Positions 6,555-60,520 of a stretch of DNA of 64,000 nucleotides are shown here, piece by piece. Within the stretch, counting starts at the first letter, position 1. Each line of letters begins with the position of its first letter. This DNA is from Vitis vinifera (lineage: Eukaryota > Streptophyta > Magnoliopsida > Vitales > Vitaceae). The notes beneath the pieces are model-generated. The model searched no databases, was not told where the DNA came from, and saw only the letters and a list, made by a program, of their open reading frames with translations. The DNA lies in contig NC_081810.1 in the NCBI RefSeq assembly GCF_030704535.1, forward strand, positions 310,501 through 374,500, given 5' to 3'. A program made the position numbers and the translations under genes.

Positions 6555-7141
6555 GTAATCAACCCTTTGCTTGTTTCTTTCTCTTTTTTTTTTCTTTTTC
6601 TTTTTTTTCTTTTTTTGGGGGGGTGGGGGTGTGTGGGGGTGTGTGGTGGTGTTTCTGCTTTTGGATCTATTACATCGGCGTCTTTTTTTTCTTTTTTTTT
6701 TCTTTTTTTTTTTAAACATTTCATATATTCATCCATCCTTCTTTCTTTTTTCCTCTGATTTTTTGAAGTATTCCTCTGCCAAGTTGATCTGGGTGTTTCT
6801 TTGTTTAAGCTGTTGTTTCTGCTATCTGGGTTCATGGTTTATTATCATCTTTCTTGTTTTGTTGCTATTTTCTTGCCCCTAAATTGAAATCTTTCAATAA
6901 GGGAGCTATGGGGATGGGGTGGGGGTTTTCTTTTTTTTCTTTTTTTTTGGAATTTTTTTTGTGATGGTGGTGTTGGTGGGGTTCATAAGTTGGATCTGTG
7001 AAATTTTTCAAAAACAAAAATAAAAATAAAAATAATTCATTGGTTGTGATGTAGAGGTAGAGATTTGGGCTGTTTTATTATGTAATTTGGTGTTTGACTT
7101 CTTTGACAGATAAAAGGGGGTGTTTGGAAAGAGGGAATAAA

Positions 7142-8248
7142 ATGGAGGACGCAATGGGAGGAAGATACTGGTGCCATAGTTGCTCACAAGTGGTGAATCC
7201 CATCGCTGAAGCAGAGCCCAAGTGCCCCTTGTGTCAAGATGGATTCATTGAGGACATCGATGGCACTGCTTCAAGGGATCATAATGACTCCGACTCTGAT
7301 CTAGCTTCCGATCGAACCCTCTCTCTTTGGGCCCCAATCTTGTTGGGCATGATGGGTAATCCTCGTCGGCGCCGCAGATTCAGAAGAGAAGATATAGAAG
7401 ATGAGGAGGAGGACAATGAAGATGGTGAGGGTCGTAGAGGAGGAGAGACTGAACTTGATCGGGAACTTGATTCCATAATCAGGAGGAGAAGGAGAAGTTC
7501 TGCTACTATTCTCCAACTACTTCAAGGCATTAGAGCTGGAATGGTCTCTGAATCAGAGAATTCTGAAAATGATAGGGATAGGGATAGGGATAGAGAAAGA
7601 GAAAGGGAAAGAGAGCGCCTGATTCTAATAAATCCTTTCAATCAAACTATAATTGTTCAGGGTTCTTTTGATTCAAACCAGGCCCAAAATCAGAATCAAA
7701 ACACCATTGGCTCCCTGGGGGACTATTTCATTGGCCCCAGTTTAGATTTGTTGCTGCAACATTTAGCAGAAAATGATCCTAATAGATATGGGACACCACC
7801 GGCGCAAAAAGATGCAATTGAAGCAATGCCCACTGTGAAAATTAAGGAGAATTTGCAGTGTTCAGTGTGTTTGGATGACTTTGAGATTGGCGCTGAGGCA
7901 AGGGAGATGCCATGTAAGCATAAATTCCACAGTGGGTGTATTCTGCCATGGCTGGAGCTTCATAGCTCTTGTCCAGTCTGCAGGTTTCAGATAGCAGCTG
8001 ATGAATCCAAGCTTGATTCAGATGCTTCTCCGAATGTTAGCAGTAACAGTAGCGAGAGGAGTAACAATGGCCATGGTAGCAGTGAAGAGGGAGATGGGGA
8101 TGGGAGAAGTGGAAATGGCAGAAGGTCTACGTTCAGGTGGCCTTTTACCAGTTTATTTTCTTCCCAAGGATCACAAACTAGCAATGGGAATTCCTCATCA
8201 TCAGGAGCAAATGCACCAGGGAGTGCATCTAGGGCGAATGAGAATTGA
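7142..8248 (+). CDS. RING-H2 E3 ubiquitin-protein ligase with N-terminal zinc ribbon (RING1/SIRP1/BCA2-like)
   Basis: The 368-residue protein is encoded in one exon. An N-terminal zinc ribbon has C11-x2-C14 and C28-x2-C31 (YWCHSCSQ...CPLCQ). A C3H2C3 RING-H2 domain at 240-280 has zinc ligands C240, C243, C258, H260, H263, C266, C277 and C280. Known plant relatives (BCA2 zinc-finger ATL and RZF groups) are cytosolic or nuclear E3 ligases that recruit an E2 through the RING, often in stress responses. Between the domains lies a highly charged low-complexity segment: an acidic EDEEEDNED run, RR-rich patches, and alternating DR/ER repeats at about 140-155 encoded by a purine hexamer repeat. The C-terminus is Ser/Gly/Asn-rich. 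The ATG at 7142 is chosen because the frame upstream reads into a leader intron and begins with a non-ATG codon. The substrate is unknown. Confidence 0.93.
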   Translation: MEDAMGGRYWCHSCSQVVNPIAEAEPKCPLCQDGFIEDIDGTASRDHNDSDSDLASDRTLSLWAPILLGMMGNPRRRRRFRREDIEDEEEDNEDGEGRRGGETELDRELDSIIRRRRRSSATILQLLQGIRAGMVSESENSENDRDRDRDRERERERERLILINPFNQTIIVQGSFDSNQAQNQNQNTIGSLGDYFIGPSLDLLLQHLAENDPNRYGTPPAQKDAIEAMPTVKIKENLQCSVCLDDFEIGAEAREMPCKHKFHSGCILPWLELHSSCPVCRFQIAADESKLDSDASPNVSSNSSERSNNGHGSSEEGDGDGRSGNGRRSTFRWPFTSLFSSQGSQTSNGNSSSSGANAPGSASRANEN

Positions 8249-9281: not shown

Positions 9282-12200
9282 TCACTTCACGGTCAAGATC
9301 TTGATCACAGATGCAGAACCAACGCGGTGCAGAGCCACGAGGGAATCTCCTTTCTTGCAGAATCCCTTTGCCTTGGCATGTTGAATGGCAAACTCCAGTG
9401 CTTCCTCTGTTGTCTCTGCATGAGAAGCCCTAGCAGATGCAGCACTTAAAACTGGAACCAGACCCCGGAAAATGAGGCTATGCCTTGCTGGAGCTTCATC
9501 ACTGCATGACCAATCAAAGGAATCGGTCTTTATCTCAGGGACAACCACAGACAAAATGGGCATGCCCGGCCTGTACTTAGCCACCAGTTTTGCAGTACTT
9601 CCTCCTCTGGTTAAGACCAATATGAGAGCTGCTCTTGCCGAGTTGGCTGTTCTAACTGCCGAAGCAGCCAGGCTCTCCAATGGGCTCATGGGTACGGGGG
9701 CATTTTTCATGATCCTTTTGAAGACATCTCCATAGTCGAGTGTGCTCTCTGCTTCGATGCATATTTTTGCCATGGTCCGAACTGCAAGTTCTGGGTAAGC
9801 TCCAGCAGCTGTTTCACCACTCAGCATCACACAGTCTGTACCATCAAGAACTGCATTGGCAACATCAGTGGCTTCAGCTCGAGTTGGCCGGGGAGATTTG
9901 ATCATGGACTCCAGCATCTGGGTTGCAGTCACAACAGGCTTTCCTTGAATGTTGCACTTGTAGACCATCACTTTCTGGGCTAAAAATATCTTTTCTATTG
10001 GGATTTCCATTCCCAGATCACCTCGTGCCACCATAAATGCATCTGAATTTGCAAGGATTTCATCAAAATTTGCCACCCCTTCTTGATTTTCAACCTACCA
10101 AACAAATTTTAAAGCAAATACCAGGCATCAGAAATGAGAAAGATTACTCTACTGTAAATTCACAACTTAATTAAACCTTCAATTTTTTTCTGTAAAAATC
10201 AAGCTACCTTCGACATGAGGAGGATATTCTTGGCATGCTTCCCCAGCAGCTTCCGAACCTCAACAAGATCTGAACCTTTGCGCACAAAAGACAGAGCAAT
10301 CATGTCAATTTTATTGGGAACTCCCCAGTTTAGGATATCTTCCTTGTCTTTCTCTGTCAAAGTTGGAAGATCAACGATGACCCCTGGAAGATTAACATTC
10401 TTCCTCTCGCCAAGAACAGCAGAATTCTCGCAGCGGCAGCAAACCAAACCCTTTTGTTTATCACAAGATAGGACTGTGAATGTGATGGTGCCATCAGCAC
10501 AGAGTATGACACTATCAGGTTTTACATCTTCAGCCAACTTTTTGTAGCTCATGCAAATCATTTTCTCATCACCCTTTATGTTATAGTCAGTGGATATGGT
10601 GATCTCTTGGCCTTGCTTCAGATGGATGGGCTTTTCATCCTTCAAAAACCCGGTTCGAATTTCTGGACCCTGTTTGACATTTGCAGATGAAATAAACAAT
10701 TGGGAAAATTCCACTTTAATTTTTTAGTTCTCAATTTGATGATACCATAACCACAAAGAAGCTCGTCATGAGAGATGGCTAGGCTAGCTAGCTTGGATCA
10801 CAGAAAAAACCAAAGAAACAGACAACAGGGCCAAAGAACAAGCAAAAAAAACATAACATAACAAAACACCACCACCCCTGCTTCCAACATCATCTCAAAC
10901 ACTGCAAAAAACTGCTTTTGGTGCTTGATGATTTAACAATGTTTTGATTGCAATTGCCAAGAAAGCTACCGATTTAGGAATCAAAAAACCAGCCAACAGT
11001 ACTACAACAACTTAAATTGGCCCCTTATTAATAAGCTTTTAATCCTACATAAACGATAACATTTTTACTAATGCTTGTTTCAAATAAGCAACAACAATGA
11101 TTAAAATAACTGAAATCCAATCAAGCAGTCTGAGGCAGATGGTCAAATTTGAGTTTATGAGTCAATTCCTAGGAGAACAAAAGGAGATAAAAGGCAAAAC
11201 AGGAGATTATTTTCATGTTGAAGCAGTGGGGTGAAATTGATAGAGGTGGTGAACTATTGAGCAAGTGGACAACATCGGGGTATGACTACTGCTAAGCCCA
11301 TTTTCTCACCAAACAGTCAGCCACAGTATTTTCAGGAATTAGGATTATACATATAGACTCTGTTTTCATTCATGACTAGATTAGGAAAATGGAAACCAAA
11401 CCCCCTTCTATGATTACAAAATTCAAACTTGGCATGACAAGTGGAAAAGTAATTAATCAGGAAATATATACAGAATGCTTAGTAAAGGGAAACAAGAATA
11501 GAAGAAAATTAGGACATGTTTGATGATACTTTTTAAAACACTTGAGATCACTTCTCAACAACAGTTGTTACTGTTTTTAGTTTTTACATATGAAAAATTG
11601 TTTCTTTTAACTTTATTCTTCATTCTTAATTGTTTTTTACTTTTTACATATGAAGAACCATTTTCTCAACTTGTTCTCCATTCTCTACTGTTTTTAAATA
11701 TGAAAAACAATTTTTTTTTTTTTTAATTCTCCACAAAGGTTTTGTCCGCTTGTAAATAATGGAGAAAATCCACAACAACTTAAATTTGTCATACAAAATA
11801 TTTTCGAAACAAATTCCCGAAATAATATATTCTCTTAAAAGAAGAATGCTTTTTTTTTTTTTGGTTCTGATAAACGTAAAACTGTTATCAACGTTTTCAA
11901 ACAGATCCTCAGCCCGCAGATGCAGGGAAACAAACAGAAAAGCTGTTGTGAGAAATCATTTGCATTCAAATGAATGAAACCTCTAACTGTTGTGAATTTC
12001 TATAGACACACAGATATATGTATATAGATGGATGAAAACGTTAATTTCCAAGAAGATCTAAAAAAGAGAACAGACGGAAACAAAGGAGAAGGGAGAAAGG
12101 CAATGGATGGATGGATGAATAAATGAAAAGAAGAAGAAGAGAGAGAGAGAGAGAGAGAGAGAGAATGGAAAACCTTGGTATCGAGCATAACAGCACATAG

Positions 12201-12419
12201 AATACCGGTGGAGTCCATGGCGGCGCGGAGGTTACTAAGGGTTTCCAGGTGATATTCATGGGAGCCATGGGAGAAGTTGAATCTGGCAACGTTCATTCCG
12301 GCCCTCAAGAGCTTCTCGAGCATGGGCACCGATCTACACGCTGGCCCTAGCGTGCACACGATCTTCGTCTTGGGCCTCTTCTCCACATCCACCACCACCG
12401 TTTTCTTCTCCATCGCCAT
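9282..12419 (-). CDS. pyruvate kinase, cytosolic isozyme
   Basis: This enzyme converts phosphoenolpyruvate and ADP to pyruvate and ATP, the last step of cytosolic glycolysis. Three exons join in phase 0: 12419-12174, 10669-10208 and 10094-9282, giving 506 residues, the usual length for plant cytosolic forms. Visible motifs are KTKIVCTLGPA near the start, the substrate-site NFSHG at 48-52, the exon junction LDTK|GPEIRTG, the K-containing stretch KIDMIALSFVRKGSDL, and the family signature region MVARGDLGMEIP at about 257-268. MLESMIKSPRPTRAE and LSGETAAGAYP follow. No transit peptide precedes the catalytic barrel, which argues for the cytosol. The start MAMEKK uses the first ATG. The gene is convergent with the RING gene. 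Intron 1 is 1.5 kb and carries a (GA)n microsatellite and a possible MITE. All splice sites are GT-AG. Confidence 0.96.
11516..11912. mobile_element. possible MITE in pyruvate kinase intron 1
   Basis: An AT-rich block opens near CATGTTTGATGATA and closes near CAACGTTTTCAAACAG, so the ends are weakly inverted (TGTTTGA / TCAAACA). Internal repeats of TTTACATATGAA occur two or three times. It has no coding capacity. The boundaries and the family are uncertain. Confidence 0.3.
12139..12164. repeat. (GA)13 microsatellite in pyruvate kinase intron 1
   Basis: An uninterrupted GA dinucleotide run, read as CT on the sense strand of the gene. It lies 10 bp inside the intron from the exon-1 donor, in the region that could affect splicing. 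Confidence 0.9.
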
Positions 12420-45779: not shown

Positions 45780-46770
45780 ACAGTTATTTCTGTGAAAAAC
45801 CTCATTGTTTCAAATGTCCTTGGCAATTCCTTTCCACTGTCTTGGAATTTTAATTTTTGTCGCAATCTTACTGATTCAGAGATTGATCTCCTTCAGAGTT
45901 TAATGTCCTCCCTTAGTTCAGTGTTTTTCTCTCTTTCTTTGGCAGATTCAAGAGCATGGTCTTTGTCATCATCAGACATGTTTTCAGTGAAATCTTTTTT
46001 CTTGGCCTTGTCAAAAGTCTCAAATCCTATCTTGTTCCTTCCAGCCAAGTTCTTGTGGAGTTCAAAAGCCCCCTCAAAGGTTAAGGCCCTCGCTTGGTTA
46101 GTAGCACATGGGAAGGTAAACACCAATGACAAGTTGCAATTGAGAAGACCCTACAAATCCCTCTATCCTCAATGGTGCATTCTTCACAAAGGAAATGGAG
46201 AATCGATAGACCACATTTTTCTTCATTACCCTGTTACCATTGGACTTTGGCACAAGTTGTTCAATCTAGCAGGGTTGGCTTGGGTTCCTCCAAGGAGTAT
46301 TGAGGACATGTTGGTTATTGCTTTTAAAGGCTTGGGGAACTCATTAAGAGGCAAAACACTTTGGCAAATCGCTTGCCTTACTTTGTTATGGATGGTATGG
46401 CAAGAGAGAAACAATAGGATCTTTGAGGATAAAGGAAGAATGGAAGAGATGTTATGAGACTTGATTCTGTTCTTTTCCTCTCTTTGGGCCTCTTGTACTG
46501 TAGCTTTTAGAGGAGTTCCTCTAAGTGTTTTACAATTCAACTGGACTGCGGTTTGCGCTTCAAAAGTTTGAGAGTGTTGGAGTTTTTCTGTGTTTTTAGT
46601 TTTCTTTAGTTGGGTGTTTTATCTTTTGTTCAGTTTTTGTTTTGTAGGAAGGACCTCTCATTCTTCTCTTGGTTTCTTCTCTTTCTCTTGTATCTCTTCT
46701 TTCTCCTGTATCTTTTCCTCTATTAATATACTTTTCTTCGTTTCTGATCAAAAAAATAAAAAAATAAAAC
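45780..46770 (+). mobile_element. 5'-truncated LINE, ORF2 3' part with poly(A)
   Basis: A 221-codon open frame (45792-46457) encodes the end of a LINE ORF2. It contains WSLSSSDMFSVKSFF, FLWSSKAPSKVKALAWLV, a zinc-binding stretch (CILHKGNGESIDHIFLHYP, where the last ligand Cys is replaced by Tyr) and LLWMVWQERNNRIFED. It is followed by a T-rich 3' UTR and TTTCTGATCAAAAAAATAAAAAAAT. The upstream reverse-transcriptase domain is missing. It belongs to a different subfamily from the 20.9-kb copy, since the 3' end is TCTGATCAAA rather than CCTATCAAA. No target duplication was found. Confidence 0.8.
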
Positions 46771-49344: not shown

Positions 49345-52300
49345 ATGGACGCAAACTCTCTTCTCTGCTCTTCAAATTCGTCAAAACCCCATTTCATTTT
49401 CAACTTCAATCACTCTTCCTCTTGTCAATTTCTCACTCCTCTTCCTACCAAACTGTTAATTAACTCAAAATTGTTATCCTCTCCTCGGACCTCTCTCCGC
49501 ACCTCCGCCCTCACTGTGGAAAAGCCTCTGGACAAGCCTTCAGAGCCCAGGGAAATGTTACCCAGGATTGATAAGAGTGGTAGGTTTTGCAGCCCAAGAG
49601 CCGCCAGGGAGCTCGCTCTGTAAGTCATCCCATTTTCTTTCACTTCCTTCAATTTTCTCACCAACCAAACGGTGGCCTTATCGTTTCTTTTTTGCTGGGT
49701 TTCATCGACAGACTAATTGCTTATGCGGCGTGTTTAGAAGGGTCTGATCCAGTTCGGTTATTCGAGAGGCGAATGAATGCCAGAAGAGGTAAAGCCTTCA
49801 TTTGGGGGCAATTGGGCCGGCATTATAGTACTAGAGACTTTGAAGGTGATGGTTGTTTAATTTGTTTGTTTTTTTTTTCATGGTATTTTACATGCAGAAC
49901 CAGGATATGAATTCGATAAAGACTCACTGTTGGAATACAATCACATGAGCTTTGGAGGACCTCCTGTCACGACGGAGACAGTAGAGGAAGCGGATGAGCT
50001 TCTGCGTAATAATGAGAAGGAGTCTGCAATTGGTAAATAAGCATTTGTGCAGTTTAAACTGTGTATGGTGGTTCATCCTACTGCTTTTCTTTTGCCAAGG
50101 GTGTCTTTTAGTGTTAAAGAAATATGTGTGACAAATTTATATTGAAAAGAGGTTTTGGATAATTTGTTGTGAACAGGTTGTTTTTAGAATAAATTAAAAA
50201 TGTTTTTTTTAGAGTATTCAGAGAAATAATTGAAAACATAAAGAATAAGTTTGGAACTTTTGCATTCTACTAAGTGCATGAGTATCTTTTAGGAGAATAA
50301 ATCGAAAAAACCCTCTTCTATATTTAAGTTTTTAAATGGAATTTTATTATTAAAAAGAATTGCAAAATTTTTTCTATATTTGAGTTTCTAAACAAAATTT
50401 TACTCTTGAAAACAATGGCTTTCAGACACTGCATTTTGACAGCTGTTTTGCAAAAATGTTGCTAAATAAGCCCATTGTCTCTTTTGATGTTTTTTTCTTC
50501 ATGCATTTTTAGCTTCCAAGTTTTACTAATCCACATAGTCTTTATTTTTATTTTTTTTCTCCAAGTTTACATATTTGGGTGTTCTCTTCACATTGCTATG
50601 TTTGTATTTAGAATGGTTTTGACCTCCAAATACATCATTTTATGTTTGTGTTTAGTTGATGTAGATATTTTGTTTTTAGTATAAGTTCACATGTGCTCAG
50701 GTACTTCAACTTATATTTTGTGGCTAAAATTACTGTGTTAATGCTCTAAATGGTTGCTTGCCTGGTTGGTTTCATGTAATCCTACCAATTCTGTTCATTT
50801 CAGCTGGGAAAAGTTGGTGATTTTGAACATAATATTTGAATAATTTAGTTAACTGCACCCCATTATAATGTTTTCCAAAGGAGGTTGCATCGTATGTACC
50901 GTGTGACTATTCTCAGTCCACACACCATTTTGGCCCAGGTTTCAAGCAACAACTGTTTGAAGCATTATCCACTATTTCTAGTTGTCCTTCAAGCCTTCCC
51001 TTGGCATTAATGGTTTATACTTGGAGGAGAATCTCCAACAGTGAATTATTAATTAATATGAAAATGTCATGATTTTCATCTATCAAGATACTGACAATTC
51101 CTCAATGGAGTCTTAAATCCTTAAACTTCCCTATTTGAAAGCATCTCATGTTTATTAGTGTTGAAGAAGACCGAGCATTGGTGATTATTTGCTTCTAGAA
51201 CCTTGTAGCATGCATTCATCTCTTTGCTTTAAGAAGTTGTCCCTTAGTTCCTTCATTTCTTCTGTTGAAGCTTTTGTCCTCTTGGTTTCTGTGGGCAGCT
51301 AACAGCATTTCCAATGCCTTAGCTAAATATAGTGCCAACATCACAATCTTATATATACAGCTGCATATAAAGGTGGTCGTTTCTTTTAGCTGTGTTAGAG
51401 AAGATTGGGTTTGGGGAAAGGTGGTGTAAATGGATAAAGTGGTGTTTATCTACTGCTAGGTTTTCAGTTATGGTGAATGGAAGCCCTACTGGATTTTTTT
51501 CAGAGCTCAAGGGGTTTAAGGCAACGAGACCCCCTTTCACCCTTACTTATTCGTAGTTGTGATGGAGGTTTTTAGCTGCCTGCTGAAGAGAGCAGTTTCT
51601 GGAGGTTTTTTGTCGCCTTGCTCGGTTCGGGGAAGAAAGGGTGAAGGGGTCCAAGTCTCTCATTTGTTGTTTGCTGATGATGCGTTGATTTTTTGTGAGG
51701 CAAAGGAGGAGCAGTTGACGTATTTGTGTTGGTTGTTAATGTGGTTTGAGGCAATTTCAGGGTTAAGAGTGAATCTAGAAAAAAGTGAACTGATTCTGGT
51801 TGGTAGAGTTGAAAATGTGGAAGAGTTGGCTGATGAGTTCGGTTATAAGGTGGGAAAGTTGCCCTCCACCTACTTAGGAATGCCGTTGGGTGCTCCTTTT
51901 AAATTTGCTGCCACTTGGGATGGAATAGAAGAAAGATTTCGGAAAAGATTGGTTATGTGGAAACGTCAGTACATTTCAAAAGGGGGGAGGATTACCTTAA
52001 TTCAAAGTACTTTGTCCAATTTGCCGATCTATTTTATATTTGTTTTCCAACTGCCTAGGGTAGTTAGAATGAGATTGGAGCAGATTCAAAGGGATTTTTG
52101 TGGGGTAGTGGGGCTCTTGAGCAAAAACCGCACTTAGTAAGGTGGCCGATTGTGTGTGTAGAAAAAAGAAAAGGAGGGCTGGGGGTTAAGAGTCTTGGGA
52201 CTTTCAGTAGGGCTCTCCTTGGCAAGTGGGTTTGGCGCTTTGCAAGTGAAAGAAAGGCCCTTTGGAACCAAGTGATTAGAAGGAAATACGGGGAGGAAAG

Positions 52301-55300
52301 AAGAGGGTGGAGCTCTTGTGAGGCTAGGGAGGCCTATGGAGTTGGGTTGTAGAAAGCAATAAGTACGATGGGACATCTAGTAACCCCTTTTTTTGGCTTT
52401 GTGGTGGGTGATTGTAAGAAGGTGAGGTTTTGGAAAGACAAGTAGTGTGGAACCACCCCTTTGTGTGAGGATTTCCCTTCATTATTTGCTCTAGCAACTT
52501 CTAAAGAGGCTTGGGTAAATGAAGTTTGGACAACCGTGGGGGAAAGGGAGGGAAGTTGGAGTCCTCGTTTCAATAAACCTTTCAATGATTGGGAGTTGGA
52601 AGAAGTGGAAAGGTTGTTTTGTTGCTTGGATGAGAAGAAGGTTTCAATAGACCTTTCAATGATTGGGAGTTGGAAGAAGTGGAAAGGTTGTTTTGTTGCT
52701 TGGGTGGGAAGAAGGTTAGTGTGGATGAGGAGGATAAGGTGAGGTGGATGGATTCAAAGGATGGGATTTTTTCGGTAAAATCTTTATATAGGGCTTTGCA
52801 ACCAGTTTCTCTTGCTTCTTTGCCTTCGAAGATTATTTGGAACTCTTGTGTGCAACCCAAATTAAGCTTCTTTGCTTAGGAGGCTTCGTGGGGAAGAGTT
52901 CTAACCTTGGACTGTTTGCAAAAGAGGGGTTGGGCTTTAGCTAATAGATGCTTTCTATGCCAAACATGTGAGGAGTCGATTGATCACCTCCTCCTTCATT
53001 GTGAAAAAACAAGGGAAGTGTGGATGTTACTCCTTTTTTTATTTGGTGTATCTTGGGTATTTCCTTTTTCGGTAAAGGAAACCCTTTTAGGGTGGAGGGG
53101 CTCTTTTGTGGGTAAGAAGAGGAAGGTGGCGTGGCAAGTGGGATCATTATGCTTGTTTTGGGTTATTTGGAAGGCAAGGAATAAAATTGATTTTGAGGAT
53201 AGCGTGTTGTCCATCCAAAGGCTGAAAGCTTCTTTTATGTATTTACTTTGGTCGGAAACCAAATTGTGGATAAAAAATGGTCCTTCGACCTTAATAGATT
53301 TTGTAGATTGGGTGTGTTCGCGATGAAGGAGAAGGTTTTTTTGTTTTTTCCTTGTTGTTTTGGTTCCTTTTGTAAGGGGGTGAGTGTCTCTTTTCTGTAA
53401 TTCTGTGGGTCGTTATTTTAGCGCCTCTTTGCAATACATTTTTTGCTTATTGATAAAAAAAATATATATACAGCTGCATTATCAATCCTTTTCCTTTCTT
53501 CACTTGACATATGTCTTTTTCTCTTCCAACAGAGGTTTATCATCTTCCTTCCTATCTTTTTCCATTCGTATTTCAATTTTAGTGTATTTTGATTACCATG
53601 GATAGAAAAAACATTGGGCCAATTCAAACTTATGCTTCCATGAATATATTCCCAAGATTGAACTAAATACCATATCATTAGTTGGAAGTTAATGTTAAAC
53701 ATTCAAGTGAGCGGCTTTAGTTAATGTAGGGGTCCTAGGGGTACACCAAGAAGACACAATGCTTAGATGTGGTAAGGAACCTTATATGAAATTAACTAAA
53801 CCTGGAATGTGAATGAAAATATTATTTGGGTCTCATAAACTATTTAAACTCCAACTTAAACAAAATGTTGCTTCCTAAGGAGGAATGAATTATTTCAGTT
53901 CCAGTTTTAATAGGTTTGCTATATGCTATTGGTCTTACATGTTTTGTTCTAATGCTTTCCATAAGTGGTTATTTTCTTTGTTGCCCTTTCGTTACTCTTC
54001 TTATTACTGGAGGCATGAACCAAGTTTTTGTTCCTTGTCTTTCAGAAGCAGAAGTTCTTTCAGCTCCTCCAAAGTTGGTTTATGGCAAACTAATTTTGCG
54101 GTAAACTTCTAATTATATAAGTAATTAATTTTCACTTGTGTGCATCTGTGTGTGAGAGAGGGACAAGGAGAGCTAACTGTGTTTTATGCCTTTTTGCAGT
54201 TTCACGAGGAAACTTTTGGTTGCAGTTGTGGATAAGTGGAACAGTCATGTGCTTGTTATTGACAAAGTTGCCCCACCAAATTGGAAGGTCTGTTTTCCAG
54301 TTTTTATTGCATCTGTTTTCCAGTTTTTTATTGCATGACATGCTGGGGTTGTACTATCCTGGCATGGTTCTTTATGTTTAAGAATTGCTATAATTTTTGG
54401 GTCACAACTTTAATAATAGAGGATTTACCTATCAAAAAAAAAAAAAAAAACTTCAATAATAGAGGATTTATTTTCCAGGTGTTATGTTTTTCTTCTTTCT
54501 TGAAATGTCGACATCCATTCCTATCTTCCCTGCCATGTAAATGCATGGCTTATAAAGGGAAAAAAGAAGTAAACTTGTATGCTGAACCCGTGTTAAGTTC
54601 TCTGTTCAACTGTTTAGTTTATTAAAAAATATGATAAGAAAAAAAACACGTCATCCAGAACATAGAAGTAATAAAAAATTGGAAAATTTTCAACTTGATT
54701 AATATTTGTATTCTCATGTATAAATATGATTGTTGGTGCTATTGTTATATTAATATACGAGTATGTATGTTTGTTTCTAACTTCGATGATATGTTGTCCC
54801 TTCAAGTTTAGACTGCTTGATTTGATTCCATGTGTGTCATGTTTAGCATTTCATCTTGAGACAACTAGTCCAAGCCTGTAGAAGGGAAAATGGTTGTGGC
54901 AGACAGCCAGTTAGAACCTTTAGTTGCATGTTACATAACTGAACCCTGGTGGCATAGATTAAGGCTCTGTTGAGCTGTGCTGAGATATGAATGTATACAC
55001 GATTAGATGTATAATTTTCTGGTTCTATATAATTAGATAGACTATTAATTCATCTCCAACCAAGGTGAGGGAGCACAAACTTAATGCTCTTACTTGTAAC
55101 ACATGCTCTATTGGTTGGTAGCATTGTATTGTTTGAATATCACATCTATGTATGCCTCAAATTGCTATTTTTTCTTTATAAGTAGTCTAGTCTATGTATC
55201 CAAGCTTTTTTTCTTCCCTTTTATTCCAAGATTTTGCTTTTACTTTCTTGATCTGCAGAACTTAGCCACTGTATTCCTTTCCTTTTTTCCCATGATTTCT

Positions 55301-55752: not shown

Positions 55753-57480
55753 TTGAAAGCATTTGGAAGCTCCTCTTTGCTATTCCACTTTTAACTCCTG
55801 CAACCCGAGTGGATGGAAGAACCTCAATCTGAGCAACTGTTTAGTTTGAGAAAATTTTCCTTGTATTCCTTCTCTCATGGTGGAACTCTGCTGAGTTGTA
55901 TGATTTATATATGATTTCATGAGACAGAAGAGAACCCCTTCGGAGATGGGTGAACTTTAGTACTTAAAAATAGAACAGAATATTGTATATGATGATGATG
56001 ACAGAGTCTGATATGGATATTCAATATTGAGTTATTCATCGTCTCCTTTCCTCCCATTTGGTCACAAACATTCCGTTTTAAGATGCATTTTCTAAGAATT
56101 TGCAGGAACACTTTTCTAGTAAAACTATTTCCAGGAGGGAAAATTGGAGAGAGTTTCTTGTGAGTCTTTCTTGTGAGTCTCCATTTTTCTTGGTGGGGTT
56201 GTGGAAACTCCACCATTTCTTTCCAGTTTGCTGCAATTATTTTTTGGGTAGTTTCTACAATTGGGAAAAACCCAAGATCCAAAAAATATTTTCGAGTTCA
56301 AAGGAGTCAACAAAAATGATTGTGAGTTGGGCCTTGGTGGTTCCACAATTAGTTTTCGGGTTCTCAAGCAGGCTTATAAGAGAGCTGTAAAATATACTAT
56401 AAAGGACATGCCCGAAACTATTTTTGAAAATAATTTTCTAATTTGAGAAATCTTTGTTTTTGTTGAGTATTTTGATGAATAGTTGAAGCTATGAAAAAAT
56501 ATTTTAGGAATTTTTTTCATAACTTATAGAGAATAAATAATTAAAATTTATTTTTAAAAACAGACTTTGGTGGGTTGTGAATATAGAATCTCGGGCTTTG
56601 TTTGAATTTTGTTTTGAAAAATAGAAATGGCAGAAACTTTTATACGAAATGTTTAAATTATCTTCCATCTATAAAAATTATTTTAAAATAATAATTTTTA
56701 ATATTTTAATTTTTTTTAATCAGTTTTTTTACAAATTTATTATTATTTTTTATTTTTTAAAATAAAACATAGAAAATGTATAGCTTCAGAAAAAAATATG
56801 GATTTCTTTAGTTTTTTTTAAGATATAAATAAATTATGTTTTAATTTTTAATACAATATTTTATTTCAAGAGATATTAAGAAAATGGAAACAAATTTTTT
56901 TTTATATTTGATTTATTATTAAAAAAACATGAAAAATAAATCAAATTAATTGTTTAAATTTAATTTTTATATGAAAAATATATATTCAATAATTTATTAA
57001 TTTGAAATTTATTTTTATTTTGAGAAAGTAGTGATTCCTAAGTGTGTGAATCAAACTTAGGAATTGATATAATTTAGGAATGGCAATAGGACGGATTCGG
57101 AACAGGTCGCCCTCATCCTAACTCCGTTTCATTTATTAAAACATAATTCACATACCCTTCCCGTTTAGTTTTTTTTAAAAAAAATTACTTTTAAAATTTT
57201 TAATTACATTAAAATAAATATATTTTATAATATTATATTTTTTATAACTTATTTTATTAAAATTTTTTATTATTATCTATATATTAAAAATAGTAAAATA
57301 AAAATTTAAATTAAATTATAGATATAAATTTAATAATAATAATAAATTATAGGTAACTTATTTTAATTACATAAACCCCGTCCCATTAGGGGTGGGACGG
57401 GACGGATATCCGAAAAAACTCGCCGTATTGTCATATATAAATTGCAAATTTTTTATTTTACACCTAAGAGTGGGGTCCAC
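55753..57480. other. NusB 3' UTR and AT-rich intergenic region
   Basis: The NusB trailer probably extends a few hundred bases. After 56.4 kb the sequence is nearly pure AT, then a MITE at 57079-57434. No gene is seen: the open frames at 55.9-56.45 kb overlap on both strands without protein-like features. Confidence 0.55.
57079..57434. mobile_element. MITE with GC-rich inverted ends and AT core
   Basis: The left end ATGGCAATAGGACGGATTCG and the right end, read in reverse (ATGACAATACGGCGAG), are inverted repeats. GC-rich subterminal blocks (CCCGTCCCATTAGGGGTGGG on the right) flank a 200-bp core almost free of G and C. This matches a widespread plant MITE layout. It ends about 90 bp before the telo-box of the snoRNA gene. 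Confidence 0.6.
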
Positions 57481-57521
57481 CTCTGAATAGAATTGCATTC
57501 GAATACGACGCCGTATCAAAG

Positions 57522-57561
57522 CTAGGGTTTTGCGACTGGGGCTGTTTCATCCTCTATAAAA
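57522..57561 (+). promoter_or_regulatory. telo-box and TATA box of the snoRNA gene
   Basis: CTAGGGTTT at 57522-57530 is the reverse complement of the AAACCCTA telo-box, which is typical of plant snoRNA and ribosomal-protein promoters. TATAAAA follows at 57555-57561. A start near 57585-57595 is expected. A second GCTAGGGTT lies at about 57622. This is an RNA polymerase II-type arrangement. Confidence 0.7.
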
Positions 57562-57717
57562 CGGAGCAGCCGAAGCCAGAACAATAACAAAAGCCTCTCT
57601 CGTCTGTTCTTTCTCTGATCTGCTAGGGTTAAGGAGGTAGGCGCTGCCGCCATAGTCTATGATCCCTTCGCTGCATATTTATCTCTGTTTCTTCTGGTTA
57701 TTGCTGTTTTTCGCAAA

Positions 57718-57786
57718 GCCTAATATTGCAATTCCTTGATGGATTCAAACAATATGGATCAAGGAATCTATCGTTAGGCAACATTA
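57718..57786 (+). ncRNA. candidate H/ACA snoRNA hairpin
   Basis: A lower stem GCCTAA (57718-57723) / TTAGGC (57774-57779) and a perfect 10-bp upper stem ATTCCTTGAT (57731-57740) / ATCAAGGAAT (57758-57767) enclose an internal loop with 7 and 6 unpaired bases, like a pseudouridylation pocket. ACA follows at 57781-57783, with three bases (TTA) after it and 13 bases between the upper stem and the ACA box; this is close to the 14-16 typical of H/ACA RNAs. I did not find a clear H box or a good 5' hairpin, and the target is unknown. Confidence 0.5.
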
Positions 57787-57945
57787 ATCTTGTGCTTCTG
57801 CCTTTAGCTCTGATTATTCTTCTTCTTTTTTTCTCTTCTGAAACAAATCCATAGAATTTTTCGGTGACAAGGTAGATACATCATACATTTGTTATGTCTA
57901 TCTCTGATTCGCATCCCTTTTTTCGCTTTTTATTAGAATTTTGAG

Positions 57946-58039
57946 TGGGAATGGTGGAGGATGATGAAAAAAATCAGACGGATTCCCAATGATTTAAACC
58001 GTGATATCATAACCAGCTACTTCTGACTCGCCATTCCCA
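57946..58039 (+). ncRNA. C/D box snoRNA predicted to target 25S rRNA
   Basis: A perfect 9-bp terminal stem TGGGAATGG (57946-57954) / CCATTCCCA (58031-58039) brackets a canonical C box ATGATGA (57961-57967) and D box CTGA (58023-58026). Directly upstream of D, AACCAGCTACT is complementary over 11 bases to AGTAGCTGGTT of 25S rRNA, recalled from the conserved CTAGTAGCTGGTTCC segment. The fifth base before the D box (58018) pairs with an adenosine (AGTA), so 2'-O-methylation of that A is predicted. A D' guide is not clear. I have not matched it to a named family. Confidence 0.8.
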
Positions 58040-58117
58040 TCTCCTCTCTCTCTGTTTTTGTTTTTTAGGTTTTTTATTTTATTTTTTCCTGTGAGTACCA
58101 TTTTTTGGGGTAATTTT

Positions 58118-58200
58118 GGCCCGTGAGGAATGATTAATATTTGCTACTCTTGATGGATGACTCCATCTGATGACCACTTTCCACCAAGATCTCTGAGGCC
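58118..58200 (+). ncRNA. U24: C/D box snoRNA U24 homologue
   Basis: Two guides match the known U24 target region of 25S rRNA. AATATTTGCTACT (58136-58148), before a D'-like TTGA, is complementary to AGTAGCAAATATT. CCACCAAGATCT (58181-58192), before the D box CTGA (58193-58196), is complementary to AGATCTTGGTGG. These two targets adjoin in 25S rRNA, as for animal and yeast U24. The D+5 rule gives the C in AGATCTTGG and the A in GTAGC, which correspond to the yeast U24 sites Cm1437 and Am1449. A C'-like TGATGA lies at 58168-58173. The C box is weak: GTGAGGA at 58123-58129 fits the short GGCC/GGCC terminal stem, and ATGATTA at 58130-58136 is an alternative. Confidence 0.88.
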
Positions 58201-59990
58201 GCTCTTTCTTTTTCATTTTCGCAGTTTGATTTTTTTTCCACCTTTTTTTCTTCCAAAAATTATCCAGATCTTTATATTTAAATTTTTTTTGCAATCTAAT
58301 TTTTGAAAGGCAATTAAATCCTAACCCTAATGTCGCCCCGTTCTAGTAACTAGTCCCAAGCTTCTATCAAATTGAATCTATGGATCGGATAATAAGAATT
58401 TATCAATTTGCCCTATTGGACCGTAAAGAGAGAGAACGCGAGAGAATTGGTTATATATCATTTAAGCTTTGCTACAAAGCTGAGATATGACGCTATGATC
58501 TGTCTATGCCTTGATGCCTTTGTCCACATAACTAAGCCTTAACAAAAGTTCCCCATTATCTTTGCATCACATTTAAGATGTTTTCCTCATTTATGTTTAA
58601 TTAAAACGGTTTAAGAGCTTCACGGTTTAAGAGCTTCGATGTGAAGCTTAACATTTCCGGTTTTTTATTTTTATAATGATTTTTTAAAAAGATATTTAAA
58701 AAAAATTAAATTCATTTGTTTTATTAAATTTCTATTAGACTTATTATATTTTTTATTTTAAAAAATAGAAAATATAAAATACATCCAACATACTACTTGA
58801 TATTTAAATATCATTTTGTTAAAGAACTTATGTTTGCTTTTATTAATAATGTTTTCTTTAAAATAGTAGATATAGAAAAAATATTGCTATTGTTTTAATG
58901 AAGCTACTGTTTTGATAATATATTATATAGTAAATAAATTATTATTATATAATACAAAAGAGATCTTGGAAAAAAAATCATCTATCTTATATAAAAGAAT
59001 GTTTTTTAAAAAAAATTACGTAACAATTTATTGTTGAAGAATAGAATTTTCCTAAATTAGTCATAGCATTGGTTAAAAAGTTAAATATTTTGATTTATTT
59101 TACACAAGCAAATTTTAAAATAAGTAATAAATAACAAGCAATTTAAAATTTAAAAATAAATTGTATTAACAAATTCCTTAATTTTATTTTCAAATTCAAT
59201 TCTAATAGTTTTTTAAGAGTTTGGTTTCCAGTGATTTTACGAAATGTTTTTATAATCCGTTTATTAATGATTTTATGAAGTATTTTTAATTTTAATAACA
59301 CTATAAAATTTTAATTTTTCAAATATTATTAAACTAAAAATATTTTTTTTAATTAATTAACAAATTGTGTTTTATAGTGATTTTAACAGGTGTTTATAAT
59401 CTTTTTTAATAATTAAAAATTTTAAGTAAAACATACTTTTAATTTTAAAAAATGTTTAAAAATGCTTTAAAAAGTATTTATATTGTTTTCGATAACGGTG
59501 CTAAAAACACTTTTATAAGAAACACTTTCATTAAAATCACTTTAAATAAAAAGAAATGTTAAACACATTTTTTGTTTTGGCAAAATCAGTAATGAGACTC
59601 GGATTAAATAAAATAGGATGAAAATCCAATTAAATTCATTTAAATATACATAAATTTTTTAAAAATTATACCGACAACAACACTTTGGTCACTTATATAT
59701 TAGTTTTTGTTTTTGCCCTTTATACTTAAAAAGCTTTTCAGGGCGTTTTTTTTTCAAAAAAGTTTTGAAGCGACTTATGAAAAAACTAGTTTATATTTAA
59801 TAAATTTTTATTTTTCACCATCTTTCCTCCAAATCTTAAAATCAACAAGTGTCCTAGAATATAACTCAATTTAGTGTACAAGTTCCTTGTTGAAGTTAAA
59901 AGCAATTTTCTACTTCTTAAAATAGATTTGAAAGATATAAATGCCTATATAGATACTATTTTTTAATACAATTTTCCATTTCAAGTATAG

Positions 59991-60064
<74 letters not shown>

Positions 60065-60520
60065 AAAAACATGATTTTTCATACTAGCATTCCTTTTAGA
60101 TTATTAAGAGAAATAATTAGAAATATAAAAAATAATTTTAAAACTTTTACATTAAAAATAGCAATGTACCTTCAAGAATAAGTTGTTTTTTTTTTATTAG
60201 TATTATAAATTCTCGAAAAAGAAATACCTTACTACTAGACACAGCCCATTGGGTCATTAACGTCAGCCCTTTCACCGACCCGTCCCGAGAGAAGCCGTGC
60301 CCGAGGAACTCTCCAACAAAAAAGTGCTACGAAATTACAAATATACCCAGAAAATGCATCGTACAACAGGGAAAAGAAGTGAGGTCAAAATAGGAAAGAA
60401 AAGGTAGGGCTGGGCGTTAAGATCCAGCCTCCGCCTCCACAAATTCCAGATCTCTCTCTCCAAGGAACCACAACAAAGAGCTCTTCCCCTCTCTCTATAT
60501 CTCTCCCCCCACCCTCTTTC
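58201..60520. other. AT-rich intergenic region with (TA)n tract
   Basis: Downstream of U24 there is a small hairpin (AGCTTTG / CAAAGCT near 58464-58482) and a 17-bp tandem GGTTTAAGAGCTTC repeat at about 58608-58640. After that comes nearly pure AT sequence, with many ATTTTAA/TTTAAAAAT words but no gene. Confidence 0.5.
59994..60061. repeat. (TA)~34 microsatellite
   Basis: An uninterrupted TA dinucleotide run of about 67 bp, expected to be length-variable and able to form cruciforms. Confidence 0.95.

Follow-up and report, generated by a model that had tools for sequence, protein, structure and literature searches.

The region 57500-58210 of this 64,000-nucleotide stretch of Vitis vinifera DNA (the window) raises the question of whether the short structured elements within it belong to one gene and, if so, to a gene of what kind. 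An initial annotation, made from the letters of the sequence, had read them as an independent plant snoRNA cluster in which an H/ACA-like hairpin and two box C/D RNAs follow a telo-box/TATA promoter. We consider it very probable that the region is an intergenic plant gene for an H/ACA snoRNA, snoR12 and U24, which would be made as one polycistronic precursor from the telo-box/TATA promoter. The features on which this reading draws are collected in Table 1.

Table 1. Positions in the window of the promoter elements, snoRNAs and associated motifs
Feature	Position	Strand	Basis and remarks
Telo-box AAACCCTA	57523-57530	-	Exact match
TATA box TATAAA	57555-57560	+	Sequence; transcription start placed by inference about 25-35 bases downstream
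Proposed two-hairpin box H/ACA snoRNA, 167 nt	57717-57883	+	Fold -40.6 kcal/mol, z -3.28, 1/200 shuffles as good
5' hairpin	57718-57779	+	-20.2 kcal/mol
5' hairpin, lower stem (7 bp)	57718-57724/57773-57779	+	Fold
5' hairpin, upper stem (8 bp)	57733-57740/57758-57765	+	Fold
Left guide ATTGCAAT	57725-57732	+	8 bp to 18S rRNA (L003)
Right guide TCTATC	57767-57772	+	6 bp to 18S rRNA; 14 bases before H box
H box ACATTA (RNA ACAUUA; fits ANANNA)	57781-57786	+	Sequence; one base after lower stem
3' hairpin	57797-57876	+	-17.2 kcal/mol; 8-bp lower stem, pocket, weak U-rich upper part
ACA box	57878-57880	+	One base after 3' hairpin lower stem
9-bp stem flanking snoR12, left arm	57946-57954	+	Inverted repeat
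snoR12 box C/D snoRNA	57955-58031	+	RF00204, 73.2 bits, E 1.4e-12, cut-off 39
snoR12 boxes	C 57961-57967, D' 57989-57992, D 58023-58026	+	Sequence
9-bp stem flanking snoR12, right arm	58031-58039	+	Inverted repeat
T-rich spacer snoR12/U24	58048-58117	+	63% T
U24 (SNORD24) box C/D snoRNA	58118-58200	+	RF00069, 50.2 bits, E 9.5e-06, cut-off 41
U24 boxes	C 58123-58129 (GTGAGGA), D' 58150-58153, D 58193-58196	+	Sequence
U24 D' guide	58136-58148	+	13 contiguous pairs to 25S rRNA fragment in L001
U24 D guide	58181-58192	+	12 contiguous pairs to 25S rRNA fragment in L001

The box C/D snoRNAs snoR12 and U24

A covariance scan of the 64-kb window against all 4227 Rfam families at their curated cut-offs returned two matches only, snoR12 and U24, both within the interval under study. 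The RNA that had been noted for its 9-bp terminal stem is snoR12, the stem being the inverted repeat that flanks it, and its alignment covers the full RF00204 model (1-83) with the Rfam consensus kept through both guides. Eight bases of the D' guide pair with L001, a 25S rRNA fragment not known to be from a plant, and a search for the D guide target gave no match in the viral-contig or other collections scanned. The snoR12 sequence pattern had 0 matches in the genome-contig and viral-contig collections, and the stretch 57600-58250 had none in the plasmid collection. The V. vinifera snoR12 would be expected to direct 2'-O-methylation at 25S A945 and A2127, the sites assigned to snoR12 in the available text of PMC8053127, which also describes insertion mutants of the U24.2 cluster in which SnoR12.2 and methylation of A945 are lowered.

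The U24 homologue of the initial annotation is likewise borne out, its score lying above the Rfam cut-off. Both guides are perfectly complementary to the eukaryotic 25S fragment in L001, over 12 bases at D and 13 at D'. Counting back from the boxes, position five is G for D and T for D', and position six is C for D'; these nucleotides agree with the Arabidopsis U24 sites C1447, A1459 and G1460 in 25S rRNA (PMC8053127, in the text available), since they would pair with C, A and G. U24 is thereby predicted to direct 2'-O-methylation of three 25S sites, those with the Arabidopsis numbers just given. Its box C, GUGAGGA, shows one departure from RUGAUGA, and the RF00069 match nonetheless clears its cut-off. 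That departure could be taken as a sign that the active cluster sits at another place in the genome and that this locus is a copy of it that has decayed or fallen silent, as could the frequency with which several copies occur in plants (snoR12.1/12.2 and U24.1/24.2 in PMC8053127). Against this, neither the guides nor the D boxes nor the terminal stems show damage, and the telo-box and TATA box keep their arrangement; we find a decayed or silent copy improbable.

The rRNA references used for these comparisons were themselves recovered from sequence collections. The 25S pattern gave two matches in the viral-contig collection (L001 and L002) and the remaining rRNA patterns 0; the 18S and 25S patterns had 0 matches in the genome-contig collection, and BLAST with the 25S stretch found no match in the plasmid and phage collections. 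Both viral contigs, deposited in IMG/VR, carry eukaryotic large-subunit rRNA (L001 4115-4503, L002 4181-4218 (-)) beside sequence that looks phage-like by eye, and are probably metatranscriptome chimeras; L001 alone of the two exceeds the Rfam cut-off. For the small subunit, BLAST with the 18S stretch against the plasmid collection led to L003 (NZ_CP050525.1, 1-1764). This 1764-base record is deposited as an Acinetobacter baumannii plasmid yet scores as eukaryotic small-subunit (18S) rRNA at 1657.4 bits, and it shares 98.7% identity with a plant 18S stretch over 152 bases. Its terminal letters resemble what we take to be a sequencing adapter, and the record looks like plant contamination. L003, plant-like and not from this species, served as the 18S reference.

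A candidate H/ACA RNA and its proposed 18S target

Upstream of snoR12, the H/ACA-like hairpin that had been reported is present, with the amendment that a second hairpin and an ACA box probably belong to the element as well. From the letters and their predicted folds, the best reading is an H/ACA RNA of two hairpins at about 57717-57883, with the reported hairpin as its 5' half. The 5' hairpin folds better than almost all shuffled versions of itself (0/200 as good for 57717-57780, 1/200 for 57711-57788), and with its flanks (57680-57810) the fold is not unusual, 29/200 shuffles being as good. Within 57787-57945 the best hairpin ending no more than 3 bases from an ACA is 57797-57876, which 2/200 shuffles equal. 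Two hairpins joined by a hinge are thus found, the second being the weaker, with a loosely paired, U-rich upper part and a spacing of 13; in box H/ACA snoRNAs the target uridine lies 14-16 bases from the box. Two other constructions were set aside. If the 5' hairpin were made the 3' half instead, the H box would have to be the sole ANANNA in 57585-57717, at 57587, from which no 5' domain could be built; and a C/D-like stretch at about 57865-57911 was judged by eye to be too short.

The two strands of the 5' pocket, ATTGCAAT and TCTATC, pair with GATAGA-T-C-ATTGCAAT in 18S rRNA through 8+6 Watson-Crick pairs, leaving the target uridine and its neighbor unpaired in the pocket, with 14 bases from guide to H box. 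The match is borne out on L003. Fourteen Watson-Crick pairs arose in 1/3000 dinucleotide-shuffled copies of the L003 18S, a frequency to be weighed against a true guide search space that, taking in 25S, 5.8S and the snRNAs besides the nearly full-length 18S searched, is larger by a few fold. With G-U pairs allowed, 4/1000 shuffled 18S copies equal the pocket score, and the antisense strand gives 10.5. When the window was searched on both strands with a descriptor for H/ACA hairpins, itself composed with this hairpin already in view, 250 solutions came out, spread over 19 bins of forty bases. One bin (the 57718-57779 hairpin) had a best 18S match of 14; the best was 7 in four bins and 6 in another six, and eight had none, so that this hairpin alone among the 19 bins exceeds 7. 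The 3' pocket gave no convincing target, its best matches being 7 pairs in 18S (L003) and 6 in the L001 piece. A 4+4 match of that pocket to dicot 18S was discarded, L003 giving at most 7.

The long and nearly complementary arms of the 5' hairpin also call to mind a microRNA precursor, and sno-miRNA genes exist, as in Arabidopsis sno-miR775/sno-miR779, in which snoRNAs and a hairpin likewise lie behind a telo-box promoter (available text of PMC4660826). The two arms here come to only about 23 bases together and an internal loop divides them, the flanked fold has no pairing below the lower stem, and the 18S match accounts for the loop sequence. An H/ACA domain describes the hairpin better than does a miRNA precursor of the kind in the genes described in that text, and we regard the miRNA reading as highly improbable.

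Whether the H/ACA RNA belongs to a known family was examined with Rfam. The H/ACA families gave no match to 57717-57883 at curated cut-offs, and a permissive scan of 57700-57900 returned five matches with E up to 10. The best of these, snoR2/U65 (RF01292), resembles the candidate in starting at base 57717, and differs from it in scoring 18.6 bits where the cut-off is 44 and in that the aligned second half lacks an ACA box at its end here. The target region of that family presumably also differs from the 18S target proposed here, and we have taken the sub-threshold match to reflect shared architecture. Because no Rfam family matches at its curated cut-off, the RNA is a candidate for an unlisted plant H/ACA snoRNA. 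The covariance search that had been suggested as a check places U24, and snoR12 with it, above cut-off, and no H/ACA family.

The low Rfam score is also what one would expect of a cluster containing only C/D RNAs, with the upstream hairpin arising by chance or being a stem that an RNase III-like enzyme cuts during processing. The ordinary fold of the hairpin with its flanks agrees with this, as does the published cluster, whose only members in the available text of PMC5122169 are snoR12 and U24. Such a reading leaves unexplained the correctly spaced pairs (8+6) that flank a uridine of 18S, as well as the H box and the second hairpin ending at ACA, and we judge it decidedly improbable. The mixed reading, that both H/ACA and C/D classes are present as the initial annotation held, draws on covariance models for two members and on H/ACA architecture with a 14-bp bipartite 18S match for the third.

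The target uridine, L003 1544, lies 89 bases before cytidine L003 1633, which we take to be the P-site cytidine and equate with tobacco Cm1645. The tobacco P-site cytidine bears this number in the available text of PMC10281867, and the 18S target is then about U1556, because it lies 89 bases before the cytidine numbered 1645. A pseudouridine equivalent to U1556 was not found in the main texts of PMC12273003, PMC10281867, PMC8351944, PMC10743738 and PMC9483110, whose site lists sit in figures and supplements. Two pseudouridines of plant 18S rRNA, U1630 and U1311, are without a known guide snoRNA in the text available of PMC8351944; neither is the site proposed here.

Proposed promoter and precursor, and the genomic setting

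The proposed telo-box/TATA promoter is confirmed as to its parts: both elements are present, and the telo-box lies upstream of the TATA box, the order expected for a plant polycistronic snoRNA promoter. The number of telo-boxes in the window is at chance level (4 observed vs 3.48 expected) and TATAAA is very common (156 in the window), so that it is only the position of the two elements that speaks for a promoter. Site II (TGGGCY) occurs 45 times in the window and 0 times between 56334 and 60242. The evidence for a promoter, a telo-box and a TATA box without Site II, is thus partial as read from these motifs. In plants the telo-box and Site II are the usual pair, and incomplete promoters do occur, because a rice locus without a telo-box is also described (both in the available text of PMC4660826). 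The claim of independent transcription fares similarly, the telo-box and TATA box arguing for it and the missing Site II against it. RNA polymerase II would probably initiate near 57585. Just upstream of the promoter, 57075-57440 has roughly inverted ends by eye, AATGGCAATAGGACGG ... CGCCGTATTGTCAT, and looks like a small transposable element insertion.

The H/ACA RNA, snoR12 and U24, with T-rich spacers between them, would be carried on a single precursor, and endonuclease cuts followed by trimming would release the three RNAs. The spacers after the H/ACA RNA, between the C/D RNAs and after them are 53-63% T. The whole proposed precursor, of 656 bases, is not unusually stable, 18/20 shuffles being as good. 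A tRNA-snoRNA gene was dropped as a reading because ARAGORN found zero tRNAs in the whole window. A common transcript, its processing and expression, and the resulting rRNA modifications are what we infer from these features, and the locus is most likely a plant snoRNA gene of both classes, H/ACA and C/D, that works as a polycistron.

The three RNAs could instead be intronic, the host being a non-coding or 5'-UTR transcript; possible splice sites are AG/GTAGG at 57635 and a pyrimidine-rich CAG, picked out by eye, near 58224. Among the listed stop-to-stop frames of at least 45 codons, no convincing coding frame surrounds the snoRNAs, the longest over them being 63 codons on the plus strand and 87 on the minus strand, in keeping with the earlier remark that no protein-coding host exon is apparent; a non-coding host exon may nevertheless serve them. 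Neither side of the cluster has a notable coding frame among those listed, and polycistronic precursors are the plant standard in the available text of PMC5122169. An intronic origin is in our view rather unlikely, and an unspliced polycistron remains the reading we prefer.

Elsewhere in the window, Pfam matches mark exons of a RING-finger gene at 7094-8248 (+) and of a pyruvate kinase gene at 9282-12419 (-). Similarity to zf-RVT or reverse transcriptase at 45792-46457, 51559-52137 and 52907-53326 (+) probably represents LINE remains, the RVT_1 match at 51559-52137 falling just under the Pfam cut-off. A TA-type simple repeat at about 59950-60065 gives alternating tyrosine-isoleucine frames on both strands.

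Relation to known plant clusters

The snoR12-U24 pair has precedents in several plants. It is cluster 19 of rice, conserved in some plants and present in Arabidopsis as 'U12.2-U24.2' (PMC5122169), and a tomato snoR12-U24 pair is also described (PMC7762058), in the available text of each. The V. vinifera locus resembles the published cluster in that snoR12 and U24 adjoin, the order of the names is the same, both match Rfam models and their guides are conserved; it differs in the extra H/ACA RNA upstream of snoR12, which the available text does not mention for that cluster. In a literature search that extended to neither supplements nor Brown et al. 2001, an H/ACA member at the snoR12-U24 locus was not found in the texts available.

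The mixing of the two classes is not in itself unusual, because plant clusters of this kind are described: cluster 1 of PMC4660826 combines one H/ACA with three C/D RNAs, and the HID2 clusters of PMC8053127 include the H/ACA snoR5. As far as the accessible portions of these reports go, the V. vinifera locus shares with them both classes in one presumed transcript and a telo-box promoter, and differs in its member RNAs and in having no Site II. What is new here is at most the H/ACA member together with its proposed 18S site, mixed clusters being already known.

We put forward tentatively, as a possibility in which our confidence is limited, that the H/ACA RNA represents a plant snoRNA family not yet described, one that heads the snoR12-U24 cluster and guides a plant-lineage pseudouridine in the 18S head domain (about U1556). 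An annotation pipeline that looks only for open frames, or only to Rfam, would overlook this member. In the proposed mechanism the RNA would direct pseudouridylation of one 18S uridine, a concrete and checkable assignment of guide to site in 18S rRNA. If this is true, one gene couples marks on both ribosomal subunits.
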